Shown here: piece after piece, positions 2,615 through 12,335 of the stretch | Layout of the letters: each line of letters begins with the position of its first letter | Position numbering within the stretch: position 1 is the stretch's first letter | NCBI RefSeq assembly: GCF_030553305.1 | Contig: NZ_JARRAH010000001.1 | Coordinates: 558,001-622,000, forward strand | From: Halomarina ordinaria | GTDB taxonomy: Archaea; Halobacteriota; Halobacteria; Halobacteriales; Haloarculaceae | Direction of reading: 5' to 3' | Length of the DNA: 64,000 bases | Translations under genes and position numbers: made by a program | Notes under the pieces: model-generated | The model's database searches: none | What the model saw: the letters and a program-made list of their open reading frames with translations, nothing else | Told to the model about the DNA's origin: nothing

Positions 2615-3625
2615 TCAGTCCTGGGACTGCTCCTGGCTCTGGTCCTGGGACTGGGGCTGGTCCGCGTTACCGCCGGCGTCACCGACCTGAATCCCGCCAT
2701 CCACCGTGGCGTCGCCGCCGCTCTGGCTCTGCCCGTCGGTGTCCTGGTTCTGCGTCATGCCGTCCTGACTCTGGGACTGCTCGCCGTTGGTCTGCTCCTG
2801 GTCCTGACTCTGGGTCTGGTCGTCGCCGTCGCCGTCACCGATTCCGCTCTGACCCTGGAACTGGGTCGTGGCGCCGTCGTCGTCGCTCTCGTGGAGCGAC
2901 TGGGTCTGGACGCCGCCCGACTGCGACGGTCCGGCGACCTGACCCTGAATCTGGTTCTCACCGGCGCTCGCTCCGTCGTTCGACCGGTCCTGCTGTGCGG
3001 ACTGGGTCCCGACCTGGAAGCCGCCGAAGCCGAAGCGGACCTGCGCCTGGCTCTGGCTCTCGTCCTGCGCCTGGGACTGCTCGCCGTCCTCGCCGTCCTG
3101 CGCCTGGGACTGCTCCTGGTTCTGGTCCTGACTCTGACTCTGGTCGCCGCCGTCGTTGAACTGGCCCTGGGCCTGTCGCTCGTCGAGCGACTGGCGCTGG
3201 TCCTGGTCGTTGTCCTCGCCCTCCTGAGTCTGCGTCTGGTCCTGACTCTGGTCCTGACTCTGGTCCTGCGAAGCGTCGTCAGCGTCCTGGACCTGCGACT
3301 GTTCCTCGCTGGCGTCCTGGTCCTGCTCCTGGTCGTTGTCCTCACCGCCCTGTGCCTGACCCTGGGCCTGGCTACGCCACTGGCTCTGGGCCTGCTCGCT
3401 GTCGTCGCCGAACTGGTACGACGACTGCGCCTGTTCGGCCGTCTGTGAACTGTCCTGGTCGTTGTCCTCTCCGTAGGAGTGATACCGCTCGTTCGTGTCC
3501 GCACTGACCACGCCGGCGAAACTGCCGGCGACGACCAGCGCGACGACCGCCACGACGAGGAGTCGCCCGGCAGTCCTGACTCGTCTGGCGCTCGATGTCG
3601 AGCGCCGGGTGCTATCTGGAATCAT
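2615..3625 (-). CDS. Secreted Gln/Asp-rich repeat protein (paralogue 1)
   Basis: Exported low-complexity protein, 336 residues from ATG at 3625. The N-terminus has basic residues, a hydrophobic segment (LLVVAVVALVVAGSFAGVVSA) and a likely cleavage before DTNE, so it is a probable Sec signal peptide. The mature part is dominated by Gln, Asp, Ser and Gly. Its first portion keeps about seven 21-residue units starting with GEDNDQ or variants (GDDSEQ, GEDGEQ), after which the period decays. No C-terminal anchor (PGF-CTERM, LPXTG) is visible. A GTG five codons upstream is possible, but the TATA element at 3653-3663 sits 28 bases before the ATG, which fits a leaderless transcript from the ATG. Function unknown; extracellular or surface matrix is inferred. 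Confidence 0.85.
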   Translation of the reverse strand: MIPDSTRRSTSSARRVRTAGRLLVVAVVALVVAGSFAGVVSADTNERYHSYGEDNDQDSSQTAEQAQSSYQFGDDSEQAQSQWRSQAQGQAQGGEDNDQEQDQDASEEQSQVQDADDASQDQSQDQSQDQTQTQEGEDNDQDQRQSLDERQAQGQFNDGGDQSQSQDQNQEQSQAQDGEDGEQSQAQDESQSQAQVRFGFGGFQVGTQSAQQDRSNDGASAGENQIQGQVAGPSQSGGVQTQSLHESDDDGATTQFQGQSGIGDGDGDDQTQSQDQEQTNGEQSQSQDGMTQNQDTDGQSQSGGDATVDGGIQVGDAGGNADQPQSQDQSQEQSQD

Positions 3626-3652
3626 CCGCGTCGGGACCACAGCCTACGCGTG

Positions 3653-3663
3653 CTTTATTATAG
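3653..3663 (-). promoter_or_regulatory. TATA-like promoter element, repeat protein 1
   Basis: CTATAATAAAG on the minus strand, 28 bases upstream of the ATG at 3625. The same element, with one change, precedes the next paralogue at almost identical spacing. Confidence 0.6.
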
Positions 3664-4204: not shown

Positions 4205-6043
4205 TCAGAAGTCGTCGAACGAGACCTGCGTCTGTTCCTGACTCGACGACTGCGACTGCGACTGTTCGTTGTCGCTTCCGCTCTGGGACTGTTCGGCGTC
4301 CTGGTCGACCTCCTGGGACTGGTCCTGGTCGTTGTCGTCACCGGACTGCTGCTGGGCCTGACTCTGGTCCGCGGTCTGGCTCTGGTCCTGGTCGCTGTCG
4401 ACAGCGTCCTGGTCCTGCTCAGCGTCCTGGTCGACGTCCTGGTCCTGGTCCTGGTCGTTGTCTTCGCCGGTCTGACCCTGGGTCTGCTCCTGGTCAGCGT
4501 CCTGGTCCTGGTCCTGGTCGCTCAGGGCACCGTCCTGGGACTGTTCGGCGTCCTGGTCGGCGTCCTGGTCCTGGTCCTGGTCGCTGTCGTCAGCGTCCTG
4601 GGACTGGGTCTGTTCCTGGTCGGCGTCCTGGTCCTTCTCCTGCTCGTTCAGCACCCCGTCCTGGGACTGTTCGGAGTCCTGGTCGGCGTCCTGGTCCTGG
4701 TCCTGGTCGTTATCCTCACCGAACTGGTCCTGGCCCTGCGCCTGCTCGGCGTCCTGGTCCTGGTCCTGGTCGTTGAGGATACCGTCCTGGTTCTGCTCCT
4801 GGTCCTGGTCGGAACTCTGGTCCTGGTCCTGGTCGCTGTCGTCAGCGTCCTGGCCCTGCACCTGTTCCTGGTCGGTGTCCTGGTCCTGGTCCTGGTCGTT
4901 CAGGATGCCGTCCTGACTCTGACCCTGACCCTGTTCCGCTTCCTGGTCACCGTCCTGGTCGCTGTCCTCACCGGCCTGGACCGAACCCTGGTCCTGGTCG
5001 GTGTCCTGGTCCTGGTCCTGGTCGTTCAGGATACCGTCCTGACTCTGACCCTGGTCCTGGTCGGCGTCCTGGTCGAGGTCCTGCTCGTTGTCCTCACCGG
5101 TCTGGACCCCGCTCTGGCCCTGGTCGGTGTCCTGGTCCTGGTCCTGGTCGTTCAGGGCGCCGTCCTGGGTCTGACTCTGACCCTGCTCGGCGTCCTGGTC
5201 ACCGTTCTGGTCGCTGTCCTCGGCGTCCTGGCCGAGCGTCTGCTCCTGGTCGGTGTCCTGGTCCTGGTCCTGGTCGTTCAGCACGCCGTCCTGAGACTGG
5301 CCCTGGGACTGTTCGGCGTCCTGGTCACCGTCCTGGTCGTTGTCTTCACCGAACTGCGCCTGCGTGCTGTCCTGGTCGGTGTCCTGGTCCTGGTCCTGTT
5401 CGTTCAGGGCGCCGTCCTGGTCCTGACCCTGGCTCTGCTCGCTGGACTGGTCTTGCGACTGGTCGCTGTCCTCGGCGGACTGACCCTGGCTAGCGGACTG
5501 GTCGGCGTCCTGGTTCTGGTCCTGGTCGTTATCGACACCGTCCTGACCCTGACCCTGGGACTGGGCTGCGTCCTGACCCTGACTCTGGTCGTTGTCCTCG
5601 CCGGCTTGACCCTGCTCGGCGTCCTGGTCAGTGTCCTGACTCTGGTCCTGGTCGTTGTCGTCACCGGACTGTTCCTGTTCCTCGACCTGCTCGCTCGTCT
5701 GCGAGCCGGTCTGGCTGTTGTCCTCGCCGTACTGCTCGCCGACGGCGTCCTGGTCAGCGTCCTGGCCCTGGCTCTGGTCGCTGTCGTCAGCGTCCTGTGC
5801 CTGCTGCTGGGCCTGGGCCGCGCCCTGGAAGCCCGACTGGTCGCTGTCCTCGGCGTCCTGGGTCTGGTCGTTCGCCTGCTCGGTATCCTGGGACTGCTCC
5901 TGGTCGTTGTCCTCACCGTACTGGACCTGCTGCTGGTCCTGGATACCGTACTGCTCGAGGAACTGGGAACTGGCCGCGCCGTACTGCGAGGCGTCGGCGC
6001 TCTGGTCGCCGGTCTGCTCCTGGTCCTGTTCGTTCTCCTCGCC
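4202..6043 (-). repeat. 63-bp coding tandem repeat (29 units)
   Basis: DNA counterpart of the 21-residue protein repeats, units of 63 bp with a partial 126-bp super-period in the middle. The plus strand reads as runs of CTGGTC. Such arrays can expand or contract by recombination or slippage, so copy number is likely to vary between strains and the assembly may be fragile here. Confidence 0.85.
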
Positions 6044-6451
6044 GGCCTGTGCCTGCTGCTGGGCCTGCTGGTCGCCCTGGAAGACGAACTGGTAGTCGCT
6101 GGAACCGGCCTGACTCGCGTCACCGTCCTGCCACTGGGACTGGGACTGGCCCTGCGAACTCTCGTCGGCCTCCTGAATCTGGCCTTGCTCCTGGGCACCG
6201 TCCTGTGCGGTGTCCTGGTTGTTTCCGTCCCCGTCCTGGTCGCTGGACAGGTACTGGTCGCTATACTGCGTCGAATCCTGGTCGTTCGACATCGCTGTCG
6301 CATACGACCCGCCTCCGATCGCTCCGGAGACGGCGACGACGCTTCCCGTCAACACGAGGGTAGCCACCGTGAGCACCAGTAGGCGCGTCACGACCGCTCG
6401 CCCTCGAGAGGCGGTCTTCGTGTTACTTTCTTCGTCTGGTTTGTGCAACAT
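4205..6451 (-). CDS. Secreted Gln/Asp protein made of 29 tandem 21-residue repeats (paralogue 2)
   Basis: Large exported repeat protein, 748 residues from ATG at 6451 (754 from an upstream GTG at 6469). After a basic leader and hydrophobic signal (LLVLTVATLVLTGSVVAVSGA) and a short Q-rich region, the rest, residues 143-754 in the GTG numbering, divides without gaps into 28 units of 21 residues plus a last unit ending VSFDDF. In nearly every unit position 1 is Gly or Ala, position 4 is usually Asn or Ser, and positions 6, 10, 14 and 20 are nearly always Gln. From about unit 12 to 26 GEDN-type and G(I/A/V)LN-type units largely alternate, giving a 42-residue higher period. Even positions are mostly Gln and odd ones Asp/Glu. 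The spacing Q-x-G-x2-N-x-Q-x3-Q resembles curlin repeats with Gln replacing Ala. A beta-solenoid or amyloid-like fibre is inferred; function is unproven. Confidence 0.88.
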   Translation of the reverse strand: MLHKPDEESNTKTASRGRAVVTRLLVLTVATLVLTGSVVAVSGAIGGGSYATAMSNDQDSTQYSDQYLSSDQDGDGNNQDTAQDGAQEQGQIQEADESSQGQSQSQWQDGDASQAGSSDYQFVFQGDQQAQQQAQAGEENEQDQEQTGDQSADASQYGAASSQFLEQYGIQDQQQVQYGEDNDQEQSQDTEQANDQTQDAEDSDQSGFQGAAQAQQQAQDADDSDQSQGQDADQDAVGEQYGEDNSQTGSQTSEQVEEQEQSGDDNDQDQSQDTDQDAEQGQAGEDNDQSQGQDAAQSQGQGQDGVDNDQDQNQDADQSASQGQSAEDSDQSQDQSSEQSQGQDQDGALNEQDQDQDTDQDSTQAQFGEDNDQDGDQDAEQSQGQSQDGVLNDQDQDQDTDQEQTLGQDAEDSDQNGDQDAEQGQSQTQDGALNDQDQDQDTDQGQSGVQTGEDNEQDLDQDADQDQGQSQDGILNDQDQDQDTDQDQGSVQAGEDSDQDGDQEAEQGQGQSQDGILNDQDQDQDTDQEQVQGQDADDSDQDQDQSSDQDQEQNQDGILNDQDQDQDAEQAQGQDQFGEDNDQDQDQDADQDSEQSQDGVLNEQEKDQDADQEQTQSQDADDSDQDQDQDADQDAEQSQDGALSDQDQDQDADQEQTQGQTGEDNDQDQDQDVDQDAEQDQDAVDSDQDQSQTADQSQAQQQSGDDNDQDQSQEVDQDAEQSQSGSDNEQSQSQSSSQEQTQVSFDDF

Positions 6452-6479
6452 CCGCGTCGCATACCCCACCGCAGAGTCA

Positions 6480-6490
6480 CTTTACTATAG
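6480..6490 (-). promoter_or_regulatory. TATA-like promoter element, repeat protein 2
   Basis: CTATAGTAAAG on the minus strand, 29 bases before the ATG at 6451. It is the same element and spacing as in front of repeat protein 1, and both ATGs are preceded by CGACGCGG. This favours ATG 6451 over the GTG at 6469. Confidence 0.6.
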
Positions 6491-6788: not shown

Positions 6789-8456
6789 TTACGCGGCGGC
6801 CGCGGTGGCCGTCGTTCCGTTCGCGCTGGCCGTCGGTCCCTCGGGGGTCGACTGACCGAGCGCCGCCGAGAGCTGCTCGAGGACGTCCGGCGAGAGACCG
6901 GTCACGGTCTGACCGTTCTCGTCCTGAACGATGACGAGCGCCCGCGTCACGTCCGCGTCACCGGGGGTCTGCACCTGGATCTGCTGGGCTCCCTGTGCCT
7001 GTTGCTGGGAGTCCTCGCCCTCGCCGACCACCTGCTGCTGCAGGACGACCATCAGGAGGTTGACGGTGACGTTCCCGTCCGCCTGGACCTGCACGGTCTG
7101 GGTGGCGAGCGCCTGCTGCTGGTTGTCGCCCCCGGTCTGGCTCTGGGTGTTGTTCTGAACGGCGTCCTGCGACCCGTCGCCGTCGGACTGGGACTGCTCC
7201 TGGTCCTGGTCGGTCGACTGGTCCTGGGTCTGTTCGTTCCCGTCGCCGCTGCTCGACTGTTGCTGGTCCTGCTCGACGGCCTGGTCCTGCGACTGGTTCG
7301 CGTCGTCGCCGGTCTGGACCTGCTCCTGGTCCTGGTCGACCGTCTGGTTCTGGTCCTGAGTGCCGTTGGCACCCTCGTAGGACTGCTCCTGGTCCTGGTC
7401 GGCCGACTGGTTCTGACCCTGCGTAGCGTTCTCGCCGGTCTGGGCCTGTCCCTGGGACTGGTTCGTCCGCTGGTCCTGCGACTGGTCGCCGTCGGTTCCG
7501 TCGTACGACTGGTCGCTGTCCTGTTCGCTGTCCTGGGTCTGTTCCTGCGAGCTGTTCTCGCCGGCCTGGACCTGCTCCTGCTCCTGGTCGCTCCCCTGTG
7601 ACTGGTTCTGCGACCCGTTCTCGCCGTCGCCGACCTGACCCTGGTCGGCGTCCTGCGTCGCGTTCTGGGACTGGTCCTGGGTGCCGTTCTCACCGACCTG
7701 CCCCTGTCCCTGCTCTTGGTCGGCGCTCTGGTCCTGTGACTGGTCCGCGTCCTCGGCGGACTGGTTCGCCGACTGTTCGACGCCCTGGGTCTGGTTCCCG
7801 GCGTCGTCCGCCGGTTCGTCGTTCGCATCGGAACCGTCACCCGCGGAACCGTCGTGCGCGTTGGAGTCCTCCTCGTCGTCGCACTCGGTGGATTCTTCAC
7901 CCTCGTCGTCGGACGCGTCACCGGTTTCGTCGGTGTCGCTCGCGCCGTCACCGGCATCGGTCGACGCTCCGTTCCCGGAGAAGACGAACCCATCGTCGTC
8001 GTCCGACGAGTCCGCGGTCGACGAGCCGTCGCCCGAGGCGTCGTCGCCCGACGAAACGCGCTCGTCGGTGTCGTCCGCATCGGACGTGTCCGCCGCGCTG
8101 TCGCCGTCGTCGGTGTCGCCGTCGCCGCTCTCGGTCGAGCCGCCCGAACCGCTCCCGGCGTCGGCGTCCGCGCCTGTCGTCGGTTCGTCGGGCGCGTCTC
8201 GCGTGCCCGTCTCGTGGGTCGTGTCGGCCGTCGTCTCGTTCTCCGCCCCGAGGTCGGCGGGTCCGTCGCCCCCGTCGTCTCCGTCCAGCGCCCCCAGCGG
8301 GGCGTCACCGCCGAATCCCGCGAGCGCGACGGTTCCGACGCCCGCGGTCACGACGAGGACGGCGACCACTGCCACGATGGCACGCCGGGTGAGGCGGGTC
8401 CCCGGGGACCCCGACGCACGGTCGCTCGCCGGTTCGGTCGGTTCGTCCGAAGTCAT
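6789..8456 (-). CDS. Secreted or anchored Gln/Asp-rich, sequon-rich repeat protein (paralogue 3)
   Basis: 555-residue surface-type protein, ATG at 8456. A basic N-terminus precedes a hydrophobic segment (AIVAVVAVLVVTAGVGTVALA) acting as signal or membrane anchor. Next is a long Asp/Ser/Thr/Gly-rich acidic stalk, then a Gln-rich part with about eight 21-residue units of the type GENGTQDQSQN. The last 120 residues are less repetitive, with hydrophobic stretches (NLLMVVLQQQVV, RALVIVQDENG). About 17 N-x-S/T sequons fall mainly in the repeats, whereas paralogues 1 and 2 have almost none. Heavy N-glycosylation by AglB is therefore plausible. Head-to-tail location and shared unit length mark it as a relative of the two preceding genes. 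Function unknown. Confidence 0.85.
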   Translation of the reverse strand: MTSDEPTEPASDRASGSPGTRLTRRAIVAVVAVLVVTAGVGTVALAGFGGDAPLGALDGDDGGDGPADLGAENETTADTTHETGTRDAPDEPTTGADADAGSGSGGSTESGDGDTDDGDSAADTSDADDTDERVSSGDDASGDGSSTADSSDDDDGFVFSGNGASTDAGDGASDTDETGDASDDEGEESTECDDEEDSNAHDGSAGDGSDANDEPADDAGNQTQGVEQSANQSAEDADQSQDQSADQEQGQGQVGENGTQDQSQNATQDADQGQVGDGENGSQNQSQGSDQEQEQVQAGENSSQEQTQDSEQDSDQSYDGTDGDQSQDQRTNQSQGQAQTGENATQGQNQSADQDQEQSYEGANGTQDQNQTVDQDQEQVQTGDDANQSQDQAVEQDQQQSSSGDGNEQTQDQSTDQDQEQSQSDGDGSQDAVQNNTQSQTGGDNQQQALATQTVQVQADGNVTVNLLMVVLQQQVVGEGEDSQQQAQGAQQIQVQTPGDADVTRALVIVQDENGQTVTGLSPDVLEQLSAALGQSTPEGPTASANGTTATAAAA

Positions 8457-8906
8457 CTTGCTATCACGAACTAACACCCAACTATGATTATCTTAATTAC
8501 ACGTTGGGTAATTCGGATAACTCTCCGATTAACCGTCGGCAACGCGGACCGTCGTGAGCGACCACACGTCTCGGTCCGGCCCCTCGCCGTGGCCATCGTG
8601 ACGCAGACGTCTCCCCGCAGTCGCTCGGATTTCACACCGATTAACCCGCACTCTCACCGCGTCGCGTCCGTCGCGACCGCTTCGTCGTCCTCGCTCCGGC
8701 GAGGGTCTGTCCGCCCCGACGGTTCTTTCCCCGGATACGACTCGTCCTCGATAATACGACCGTTTATGCTCTCGACCGACCGGAGAGGGGGTCCAACCAG
8801 CCGTCTGTCGATGCGCCGTCTCGCGTCGACAGACGACCGGTGACGGCGTCGCTCGCGCTCAGACGTTCGGTCCCCCACCCGGATCGCTCCGAACGGTTTA
8901 TCTGGT
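8457..8906. other. Gene-less region upstream of repeat protein 3
   Basis: About 450 bases. Near 8486-8497 the minus strand has an AT-rich TTAAGATAATC stretch that could be the promoter of repeat protein 3. The rest contains only short unconvincing frames. Confidence 0.5.
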
Positions 8907-10170: not shown

Positions 10171-10287
10171 CGCCCTCGGAGCGATTCGATATAGTGAACA
10201 CCGGTTCATCACGGATGGTGGAGTGAGCGCGCGGACGGCCGGTATCCGACGGGACACCCGTGGAGTCGACCCGAAACGGCCGACGGC

Positions 10288-10295
10288 TATTTACA
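10288..10295 (+). promoter_or_regulatory. TATA-like element before Bat-type regulator
   Basis: TATTTACA about 25 bases upstream of GTG 10317, which supports a leaderless start there. Confidence 0.4.
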
Positions 10296-10316
10296 TCCGC
10301 TACCGAATGTCCGTGC

Positions 10317-12335
10317 GTGAGTGGTGATTCGGGTGCAGCGGGGGGAGACGCTCGGAACCGACGCACTCGGGAGGACCGATGTGCGTACGACGAGTCCGTC
10401 GTCGGGAGAGTGGACGAAGTACCGCTCTTCCGGGACCTCCTCGCGCGCTGCACCGACGGGGTGTTCGTGGTCGACGACGGGGGGACGGTCGTCCTCGCCG
10501 ACGAGGCCGGTGCGGCAGTCGTCGGCGAGACACCGGACGTGGTCCTCGGGGGGTCGCTAGCGGCACTCGCGGGCGACCGGTGCGGAGAGCGCGTCCTGGC
10601 CGCTATCGACGACGCCCTGACCACCGGCGAGCGGAGCGACGTCGTGCTCCCACTGGACGGCGAAACGACCGGCACGGTTTCGTTCCGGGCCGTCGACCAC
10701 GGCGACGACCGCCTCGTGACCGGGGTGGTCCGCCGTGGAGGGTGGAGTCGGCGGGAATCCCCTGGTTCCCGCGAGCGGTATCGGCGCCTCTTCGACGCGG
10801 CACCGGACCCGATCGTCGTCGCCGACGCGACGACCGGAGAGTTACTCGACGTCAATGCGGCCGCGACGACGCTCGTCGGCGTTCCTCGCGACGAACTGGT
10901 CGGCCGCCAGCAGGCGTCGCTCCACCCGTCCGACGAGCGCGCGTACTGTACCGACGTCTTCGGCGACTCCCCGGAGGGCGCGGTCGAACGACGGGAGGTC
11001 CACGTCGTCCGCGACGACGGGCGTCGAATCGCCGTCGAAGCGACCGTCGCCACCGTCGAACTGGAGGGTAGAGCCGTCACCCAGACCATCTTCAGGGACG
11101 TCGGCGACCGCCAGCGCCGCGAACGCGAACTCGCGCTCGACCGCAACGAACTCGCGCGGCTGAACCGCGTCAATCGCATCATCCGGCGTATCAACCGCGC
11201 GCTCGTCGACGCCGAGAACCGTTCGGAGGTCGAGCGGGCCGTCTGCGAGGGGGTGGTCGAGGAGGCGCCGTACGTCTTCGCGTGGGTCGGCTCGGTCAAC
11301 CGGGCCCAGCAGGCGGTCGTCCCCGAGACGTGGGCCGGCGACCCCGAGGGCTACCTCGACGACATCGCCATCCCGCTGGGGGAGGAACCGCGAGGGCCGA
11401 CGGCGCTCGCCGTCGAGACCCACGAGGTACGCGCGATACAGGACCTCGCGGTCGACGAGTCCTACGGCCCGTGGCGCGACCAGGCGCTCGCCCGCGGGTA
11501 CCGGTCCTCGGCGGCGATTCCGGTCGTCTTCGAGGACCGACTGTTCGGGGTCCTCAACCTGTACGCCGACGAAGCGGACGCGTTCGACACGAAAGAGCGC
11601 GAGGTCCTCGCGGACCTCGGTCGCGCCATCGGACACGCGCTGAACGCACTCGAGCGCCGGGACGCGCTGATGAGCGACAGCGTCCTCGAGGTCGAGTTGC
11701 GCGCGGAGACGACCTCGGGGGGGTTGCTCGCGGCCGCGGCCGACGAGGGCGTCGTCCACTTCGACCGCATCATCCCGTCCGGCGAGGACCGCTACCTGCA
11801 GTACGTGACGGTCACCGGCCTCTCCGCCGACCGCTTCGAGGAACTGGTCGACCGATACCCGGGGTACGCGGACGTCCGGAAGATACGCGAGGACGAGGGG
11901 ACGGGGGAGGCGGTCTTCGAACTGCAGGCGACCGACCCCCCGGCGTCCTCGCTCGTCGCGAGTTACGGCGGACGCGTCACCGACGTCGTCGCCGACGACG
12001 AGGCGCTCACCCTGACGGTCGAACTCCCGACGCAGACCGACGTTCGCCAGTTCGTCGAGGCGCTCTCGGAGCCGTTCCCGGACGTCGCACTCGTCTCACA
12101 GCGGACGGTCCCGCGGCGCAACCGGACCCCCGACGGCATCCGCGTCTCCCTGGAGGACGAACTCACCGACCGCCAGCGGACGACGCTGGAGACGGCCTAC
12201 TACGCCGGCTACTTCGAGTGGCCGCGCGACAGCACCGCGGAGGACGTGGCCGAACGCCTCGACGTCTCCTCGCCGACGGTCCACAAGCACCTCCGGGCGG
12301 CCGAACAGAAGATCCTCCAGATGCTCCTCGACTGA
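10317..12335 (+). CDS. Bat-type PAS/GAF sensor-regulator with HTH-10 domain
   Basis: Bacterio-opsin-activator-like transcriptional regulator, 672 residues. In order: a divergent PAS-like segment (about 35-140), a PAS domain (RYRRLFDAAPDPIVVAD onward, about 155-275), a GAF domain (about 290-440, ending near a KEREVLADLG helix), a Bat domain (about 455-600) and a C-terminal HTH-10 helix-turn-helix (LTDRQRTTLETAYYAGYFEWP through SSPTVHKHLRAAEQK). These proteins sense redox, light or small molecules and activate transcription without a kinase step. GTG 10317 was chosen from the TATA position. GTG 10260 and 10410 are alternatives. The targets are not evident from the neighbourhood. Confidence 0.88.
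   Translation: MSGDSGAAGGDARNRRTREDRCAYDESVVGRVDEVPLFRDLLARCTDGVFVVDDGGTVVLADEAGAAVVGETPDVVLGGSLAALAGDRCGERVLAAIDDALTTGERSDVVLPLDGETTGTVSFRAVDHGDDRLVTGVVRRGGWSRRESPGSRERYRRLFDAAPDPIVVADATTGELLDVNAAATTLVGVPRDELVGRQQASLHPSDERAYCTDVFGDSPEGAVERREVHVVRDDGRRIAVEATVATVELEGRAVTQTIFRDVGDRQRRERELALDRNELARLNRVNRIIRRINRALVDAENRSEVERAVCEGVVEEAPYVFAWVGSVNRAQQAVVPETWAGDPEGYLDDIAIPLGEEPRGPTALAVETHEVRAIQDLAVDESYGPWRDQALARGYRSSAAIPVVFEDRLFGVLNLYADEADAFDTKEREVLADLGRAIGHALNALERRDALMSDSVLEVELRAETTSGGLLAAAADEGVVHFDRIIPSGEDRYLQYVTVTGLSADRFEELVDRYPGYADVRKIREDEGTGEAVFELQATDPPASSLVASYGGRVTDVVADDEALTLTVELPTQTDVRQFVEALSEPFPDVALVSQRTVPRRNRTPDGIRVSLEDELTDRQRTTLETAYYAGYFEWPRDSTAEDVAERLDVSSPTVHKHLRAAEQKILQMLLD

Follow-up and report, generated by a model that had tools for sequence, protein, structure and literature searches.

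Protein B, encoded by one of three Q/D-repeat genes (C, B and A, all on the minus strand) in the 64-kb window, that is, the whole stretch of DNA that was analysed, consists largely of 21-residue repeats kept in a fixed register. Judging from its sequence, we lean towards the view that it is a salt-adapted curlin-type beta-solenoid with an amide core, exported and polymerising, probably a matrix fibre. We infer the fold, the export route, the polymerisation and the biological role from the observations below, which concern the following features.

2615..3640, minus strand: protein A, 341 aa, a Q/D-rich secreted paralogue whose 21-residue repeats are degenerate
3653..3663, minus strand: box CTATAATAAAG upstream of gene A, the same element as the gene B box
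4205..6469, minus strand: gene of protein B, secreted Q/D-repeat protein, 754 aa from GTG 6469 or 748 aa from ATG 6451
4217..6043, minus strand: 29 gapless 21-residue units of protein B, residues 143-751 (GTG numbering); a degenerate 63/126-bp tandem array in DNA
4217..4279, minus strand: last unit of protein B, GSDNEQSQSQSSSQEQTQVSF, of the C-terminal type G-x-x-N-x-x-S-Q-S-Q-S-S-S-Q-x-Q
6300..6400, minus strand: Sec-like signal sequence of protein B, VTRLLVLTVATLVLTGSVVAVSGA (approximate, placed by eye from the hydropathy maximum)
6480..6490, minus strand: promoter-like box CTATAGTAAAG of gene B, preceding the ATG by about 30 bp
6789..8477, minus strand: protein C, 562 aa, with an acidic S/D/T linker, 21-residue Q/D repeats and a hydrophobic Q-rich C-terminal domain

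The three genes are flanked by an Orc1/Cdc6 gene (693-1922) and the gene of a PAS-GAF-BAT-HTH_10 regulator (10260-12335). The more likely start of protein B is ATG 6451 rather than GTG 6469, because A, B and the orthologues of both in two other Halomarina genomes have the context GCGGATG, and because a CTATARTAAAG box precedes this ATG by about 30 bp. There are two copies of this box in the window, before A and B only (0.06 expected), and it recurs at both orthologues in the two other Halomarina genomes. Protein B has a single hydrophobic segment, at the N-terminus, and lacks an anchor at the C-terminus, in agreement with the original prediction of a signal peptide without an anchor. In protein C the N-terminal hydrophobic segment lacks an obvious cleavage site, and no Pfam match was found for this protein. 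The C-terminal domain of C-type proteins (the window; L069:8263-10176; L082:5230-7083) is hydrophobic and Q-rich; its two halves, each of about 40 residues, resemble each other and have the pattern QQQAxAxQxVxVQxDGxVxV.

The units of protein B follow each other without gaps from residue 143, as first described, and end at residue 751, leaving only DDF; four degenerate units before residue 143 carry the same register back to about residue 59. Position 1 is Gly or Ala in all 29 units (G22/A7). Gln, predicted to be nearly invariant, occupies positions 6, 10 and 14 in 29 units each and position 20 in 28, and it is also the main residue at positions 8, 16 and 18, as at position 6. Asn or Ser at position 4 had been called usual, which is too weak: this position is fixed (N19/S10). 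The pattern Q-x-G-x2-N-x-Q-x3-Q, read across units, has 20 exact occurrences, and 31 if G/A and N/S are permitted. The residue-by-residue alternation of Gln with Asp/Glu holds as well, the ratio of even to odd positions being 178:3 for Gln and that of odd to even positions 178:18 for Asp/Glu. The identity of the protein with itself is 0.50 at lag 21 and 0.61 at lag 42, more than 12 standard deviations above 1000 parity-preserving shuffles (0.32 +/- 0.014, maximum 0.36). The 42-residue period is the stronger one because two unit types alternate. Turn positions 2-3 switch between acidic (ED) and aliphatic (IL/VL/AL) residues unit by unit, and across the family these positions are correlated at n+2 and anticorrelated at n+1. 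In a solenoid, this alternation would give a striped edge.

The 609-residue repeat region contains 27% Q, 22% D, one K/R and 33 V/I/L/M/F residues. This composition is also compatible with the main rival of a solenoid, a disordered exported acidic Gln/Asp polymer that would serve as an ion buffer or as a hydrated, polyanionic coat, similar to halomucin, in which the register would reflect nothing but the 63/126-bp duplication of DNA. The tandem array at the DNA level and AlphaFold2 confidence below 65 point in the same direction. However, the positions that evolve tell another story. Between the B orthologues of two Halomarina species, changes were observed at 11 of 184 inward and 50 of 138 outward positions (p = 5e-12), and between B orthologues in a second genus at 2 of 184 and 33 of 138 (p = 1.5e-11), with units selected by Gln10/14/20 in just one protein of each pair. 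Gln6, Gln10, Gln14 and Gln20 have no changes in either pair, and pairs of small paralogues agree. For the Halomarina pair dS is about 0.34 and dN/dS of the whole protein about 0.49; nearly all Gln codons are CAG and there are few silent changes, so dN/dS by position is uninformative and the inward/outward contrast rests on amino acid changes. Thus the Gln face and the acidic face suggested for an extended strand are visible in evolution, the former nearly constant and the latter changing. Changes are about 6- to 22-fold rarer at inward Gln/Asn positions than at the outward positions next to them, and different genera retain the register, Gly1, Asn4 and the C-terminal unit despite differing outer residues. 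Since a disordered coat should need neither inward constraint nor a conserved register, we consider it unlikely. The inward constraint could also stem from some other extended, two-faced structure. Among even positions, the top raw covariation signal is between 6 and 18, which face each other in the structural model, although it arises between proteins only (z = -0.6 within proteins). The i,i+4 covariation signals at odd positions are weak.

Relatives of protein B form a family. The same three genes are present in the closely related genomes G004 and G005, and these genes occur in three of the eight Halomarina genomes searched, including that of the window. In a second cluster, about 18 kb beyond the window, there is one paralogue of 337 aa and there are two small ones of 145-148 aa. 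When genomes of the class were searched with a profile of the last four units, 6 of 391 were seen to contain relatives. The named records with relatives are from Halomarina, Halobellus and Halogranum, and further haloarchaea have others. None was found on plasmids. B-type and C-type genes are neighbours in the clusters of G000, G004, G005, G116, G132, G287, G400 (L069) and Halogranum (L082). The small relatives, of about 130-220 aa, contain four to eight units in the same register and end in the common final unit, which the Halomarina B orthologues also have, with small changes. Several of them have Ile, Val or Ala at position 6 and Ala or Ser at position 18, e.g. GEDNEIHQDQDNYQKQFAAQF.

Some relatives have peculiarities of their own. 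Small paralogues from two genera (L019, L021, L023, L070) are preceded by a TAACAAATACG-like element, unlike the CTATARTAAAG box of A and B. Two small relatives (L023:7316-7804 and L084:5380-6318) contain a long Lys/His/Asp-rich linker (KKDHKKD..., KHHDKHHD...) between the signal peptide and the repeats, which might bind metal or a surface. A 938-aa protein in G180 (L076:4570-7386) has E/Q/N-rich repeats GDDNEQEAEQENE... of similar composition in a different register.

The curlin kernel is N-$-psi1-$-psi2-$-Q followed by an X-G-X-X arc, then repeated, and the average repeat is 23 +/- 5 residues (Sleutel et al., PMC10192328). The 29 gapless 21-residue units of protein B fall within this range and can be laid on the kernel with strand a at 4-10, arc 1 at 11-13, strand b at 14-20 and arc 2 at 21-3. 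Matched features are N/S4 (29/29), Q10 (29/29), Q20 (28/29) and G/A1 (29/29), the last in the X-G-X-X arc that follows strand b. The inward psi positions, which in curlins are hydrophobic (or Ser/Thr), are mainly Gln in protein B. Curlins proper (PF07012, CsgA/CsgB; especially the centrosymmetric class, e.g. R15.5 of Pontibacter korlensis) share with protein B the Asn opening strand a, the Gln closing both strands, the X-G-X-X arc, polar/acidic alternate residues, a period near 22, a signal peptide and uncapped end-to-end repeats; Ser4 in ten units resembles strand a of E. coli CsgA. They differ in having hydrophobic residues at the four psi positions occupied by Gln in protein B, and Asn rather than Gln14 at the start of strand b. 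In protein B arc 1 is one residue shorter and usually formed by Asn/Ala/Ser/Thr without Gly. As in curlins, position 6 of the small relatives is Ala/Ile/Val and position 18 is Ala.

Unlike curlins, protein B is below Pfam detection. No match to Curlin_rpt (PF07012) was obtained for A, B, C or the small relatives, and none over the cut-off in the window's own genome. A haloarchaeal curlin (L077), used as positive control for the small relatives, scored E = 2e-45. Weak own-genome matches were rejected, as by eye their frames look antisense or out-of-frame within other genes. CsgG, the only csg gene searched for, is not encoded in the genome, again unlike the situation in curlins; this is expected for a haloarchaeon, which has no outer membrane. 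Bona fide Pfam curlins exist in haloarchaea (L077:7052-7789 and L079:4885-5508, from G210 and G220; also in G319 and G379). The proteins at L077 and L079 are, like members of the protein B family, small secreted repeat proteins from the same class of organisms with the half-repeat Q-x-G-x-x-N-x-A/Q-x-x-x-Q. However, they are found in another family (f7) of organisms and have 19-residue units QDGKNNDADVDQRNKAFVD, an Ala/Val hydrophobic core and a shorter second half-repeat.

Several sequence comparisons bear on the curlin relationship. In a phmmer search of PDB, the sole match of protein B at E up to 10, and the closest solved sequence, was the solved curlin 8c50 (E = 0.045); an orthologue of protein B had no matches and the small relative L024 unrelated ones only. 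The best cyclic alignment of unit columns to the columns of haloarchaeal curlins, assessed with a parity-preserving null, was significant for the family (p = 0.0015) and not for protein B alone (p = 0.30), so the pattern in one sequence is insufficient. In a second test, residue order was permuted inside the repeats, keeping composition and period. Against 8c50 (a 293-residue stretch; 400 controls) the B-only profile scored 15.6 bits, with a permuted null mean of -20 to -25 (p = 0.0025-0.005), and against one haloarchaeal curlin it gave p = 0.02-0.045. The family profile scored 28-37 bits against true haloarchaeal curlins (p <= 0.005). Finally, a profile of the small relatives, built with signal sequences and no curlin, matched each of the four haloarchaeal genomes that exceed the Pfam cut-off for curlin, at E from 1e-6 to 2e-5. 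However, a few secreted proteins of other kinds, also rich in Q/N, have similar values (E about 2e-5 to 7e-5, in one case 2e-9), so these matches support the curlin link but do not prove it. Matches in G159, G133, G352 and G411 were excluded from the family as different Q/N-rich secreted proteins. Other small secreted Q/N/A-rich proteins (L100, L101, L102, L103, L104), most of them matching this profile weakly, are possibly further beta-solenoid families.

At the level of sequence, then, the family does resemble curlins, and more strongly than the first description was able to establish. The curlin-like spacing proposed for protein B survives tests controlled for composition and period, and recurs in relatives with an Ala/Ile core; however, as a property of protein B taken alone it is less secure, given the column-profile result and the silence of Pfam.

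AlphaFold2 folded nine units of protein B (mean pLDDT 51, pTM 0.34) and seven units of a small Halogranum relative (mean pLDDT 63, pTM 0.54) into solenoids with two strands per unit. The suggested beta-solenoid is thus predicted for several units, at low pLDDT. Moreover, AlphaFold2 over-predicts beta-solenoids for repeats (PMC11795689), so these models are weak evidence. With Foldseek, the CsgA fibril ranked first for the Halogranum relative, at a non-significant E = 0.37, and no curlin was listed for the model of protein B. VIA-align placed SufB (Z 14.3) and other beta-helices above CsgA (Z 10.4, rmsd 8.3).

As these structural matches include non-amyloid beta-helices (SufB, adhesins), protein B might be a monomeric two-sheet beta-solenoid that serves as a spacer or adhesin stalk without polymerising and resembles curlins by convergence of fold; its 29-33 units would be enough for a rod alone. 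We find this rather improbable, since protein B shows neither a terminal cap nor an adhesive domain, its last unit is an ordinary repeat, as is the case for curlin subunits with end-to-end stacking, and the small relatives with four to eight units would be too short for a stalk. RTX structures are also among the VIA-align matches, and Asp-rich repeats with Gly could suggest an RTX-like acidic repeat that binds calcium or other divalent ions and folds upon binding. However, the period is 21, there is no GGxGxDxUx nonapeptide in the unit listing of protein B and no Pfam match, and the invariant residue is Gln, not Asp, while the Asp positions drift to Glu, Ser or Thr. The RTX-like reading is very hard to sustain.

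Hydrophilic cores have precedents. In polyglutamine, or polar-zipper, amyloids the core consists of stacked ladders of Gln side-chain amides. Similar amide ladders are envisaged for protein B. In contrast to polyglutamine, its Gln and acidic residues alternate, the register is fixed and there are turns, and a defined solenoid rather than a homopolymer aggregate would therefore be expected. CsgA-like proteins with a Ser/Thr core encoded outside csg operons have been described, e.g. A0A249PTX6 of Sinorhizobium fredii (PMC10192328). Proteins of this type share with protein B the curlin kernel, a hydrophilic core and the lack of a Csg operon, but they are bacterial, their core is Ser/Thr, and Asn is kept at the start of strand b in the kernel given in that paper.

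For the curlin-type solenoid that we favour, the following model can be suggested. Each 21-residue repeat would form one beta-arch with strands 4-10 and 14-20, joined by the tight three-residue arc 11-13 and the X-G-X-X arc 21-3, and the arches would stack into a two-sheet beta-solenoid. Inward Asn4, Gln6, Gln8, Gln10, Gln14, Gln16, Gln18 and Gln20 would form an amide-ladder core in place of the bacterial hydrophobic core, whereas the outward Asp/Glu/Ser/Thr would make an acidic surface suited to high salt and protecting against salting-out. Given its signal sequence, protein B would leave the cell by Sec and fold outside, with no outer membrane to cross, and then polymerise end to end, giving fibres for the extracellular matrix or for adhesion. 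Protein C, with its apparent membrane anchor, acidic linker and repeats, may tether or nucleate protein B. A bolder proposal, which we put forward only tentatively and consider doubtful as a whole, is that this is a distinct archaeal class of functional amyloid, adapted to salt, namely a curlin-type beta-solenoid with an all-amide (Asn/Gln) core, an acidic skin, single-membrane export without Csg machinery and nucleation by the membrane-anchored protein C, and that it makes up the matrix fibres in some biofilms of haloarchaea.

A 2012 survey found one archaeal protein with curli-like repeats (PMC3521004), and no report of a Gln-core haloarchaeal curlin-like family was found in the open-access literature. 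Biofilms of Haloferax volcanii stain with amyloid dyes, and the 2014 study mentions only a possible genetic determinant, HVO_1403, without naming the protein (PMC4180959). A link between the Q/D-repeat family and this staining is a suggestion only. In other haloarchaea the family provides concrete sequence candidates for a biofilm amyloid, which statistics and intermediates connect with curlin. If the model is true, a core almost free of hydrophobic residues is compatible with the curlin fold, curlin-type fibres are possible without the Gram-negative secretion system, and the family shows how a functional amyloid adapts to molar salt. Simple repeats with an acidic surface may also be useful for the design of salt-stable protein fibres.
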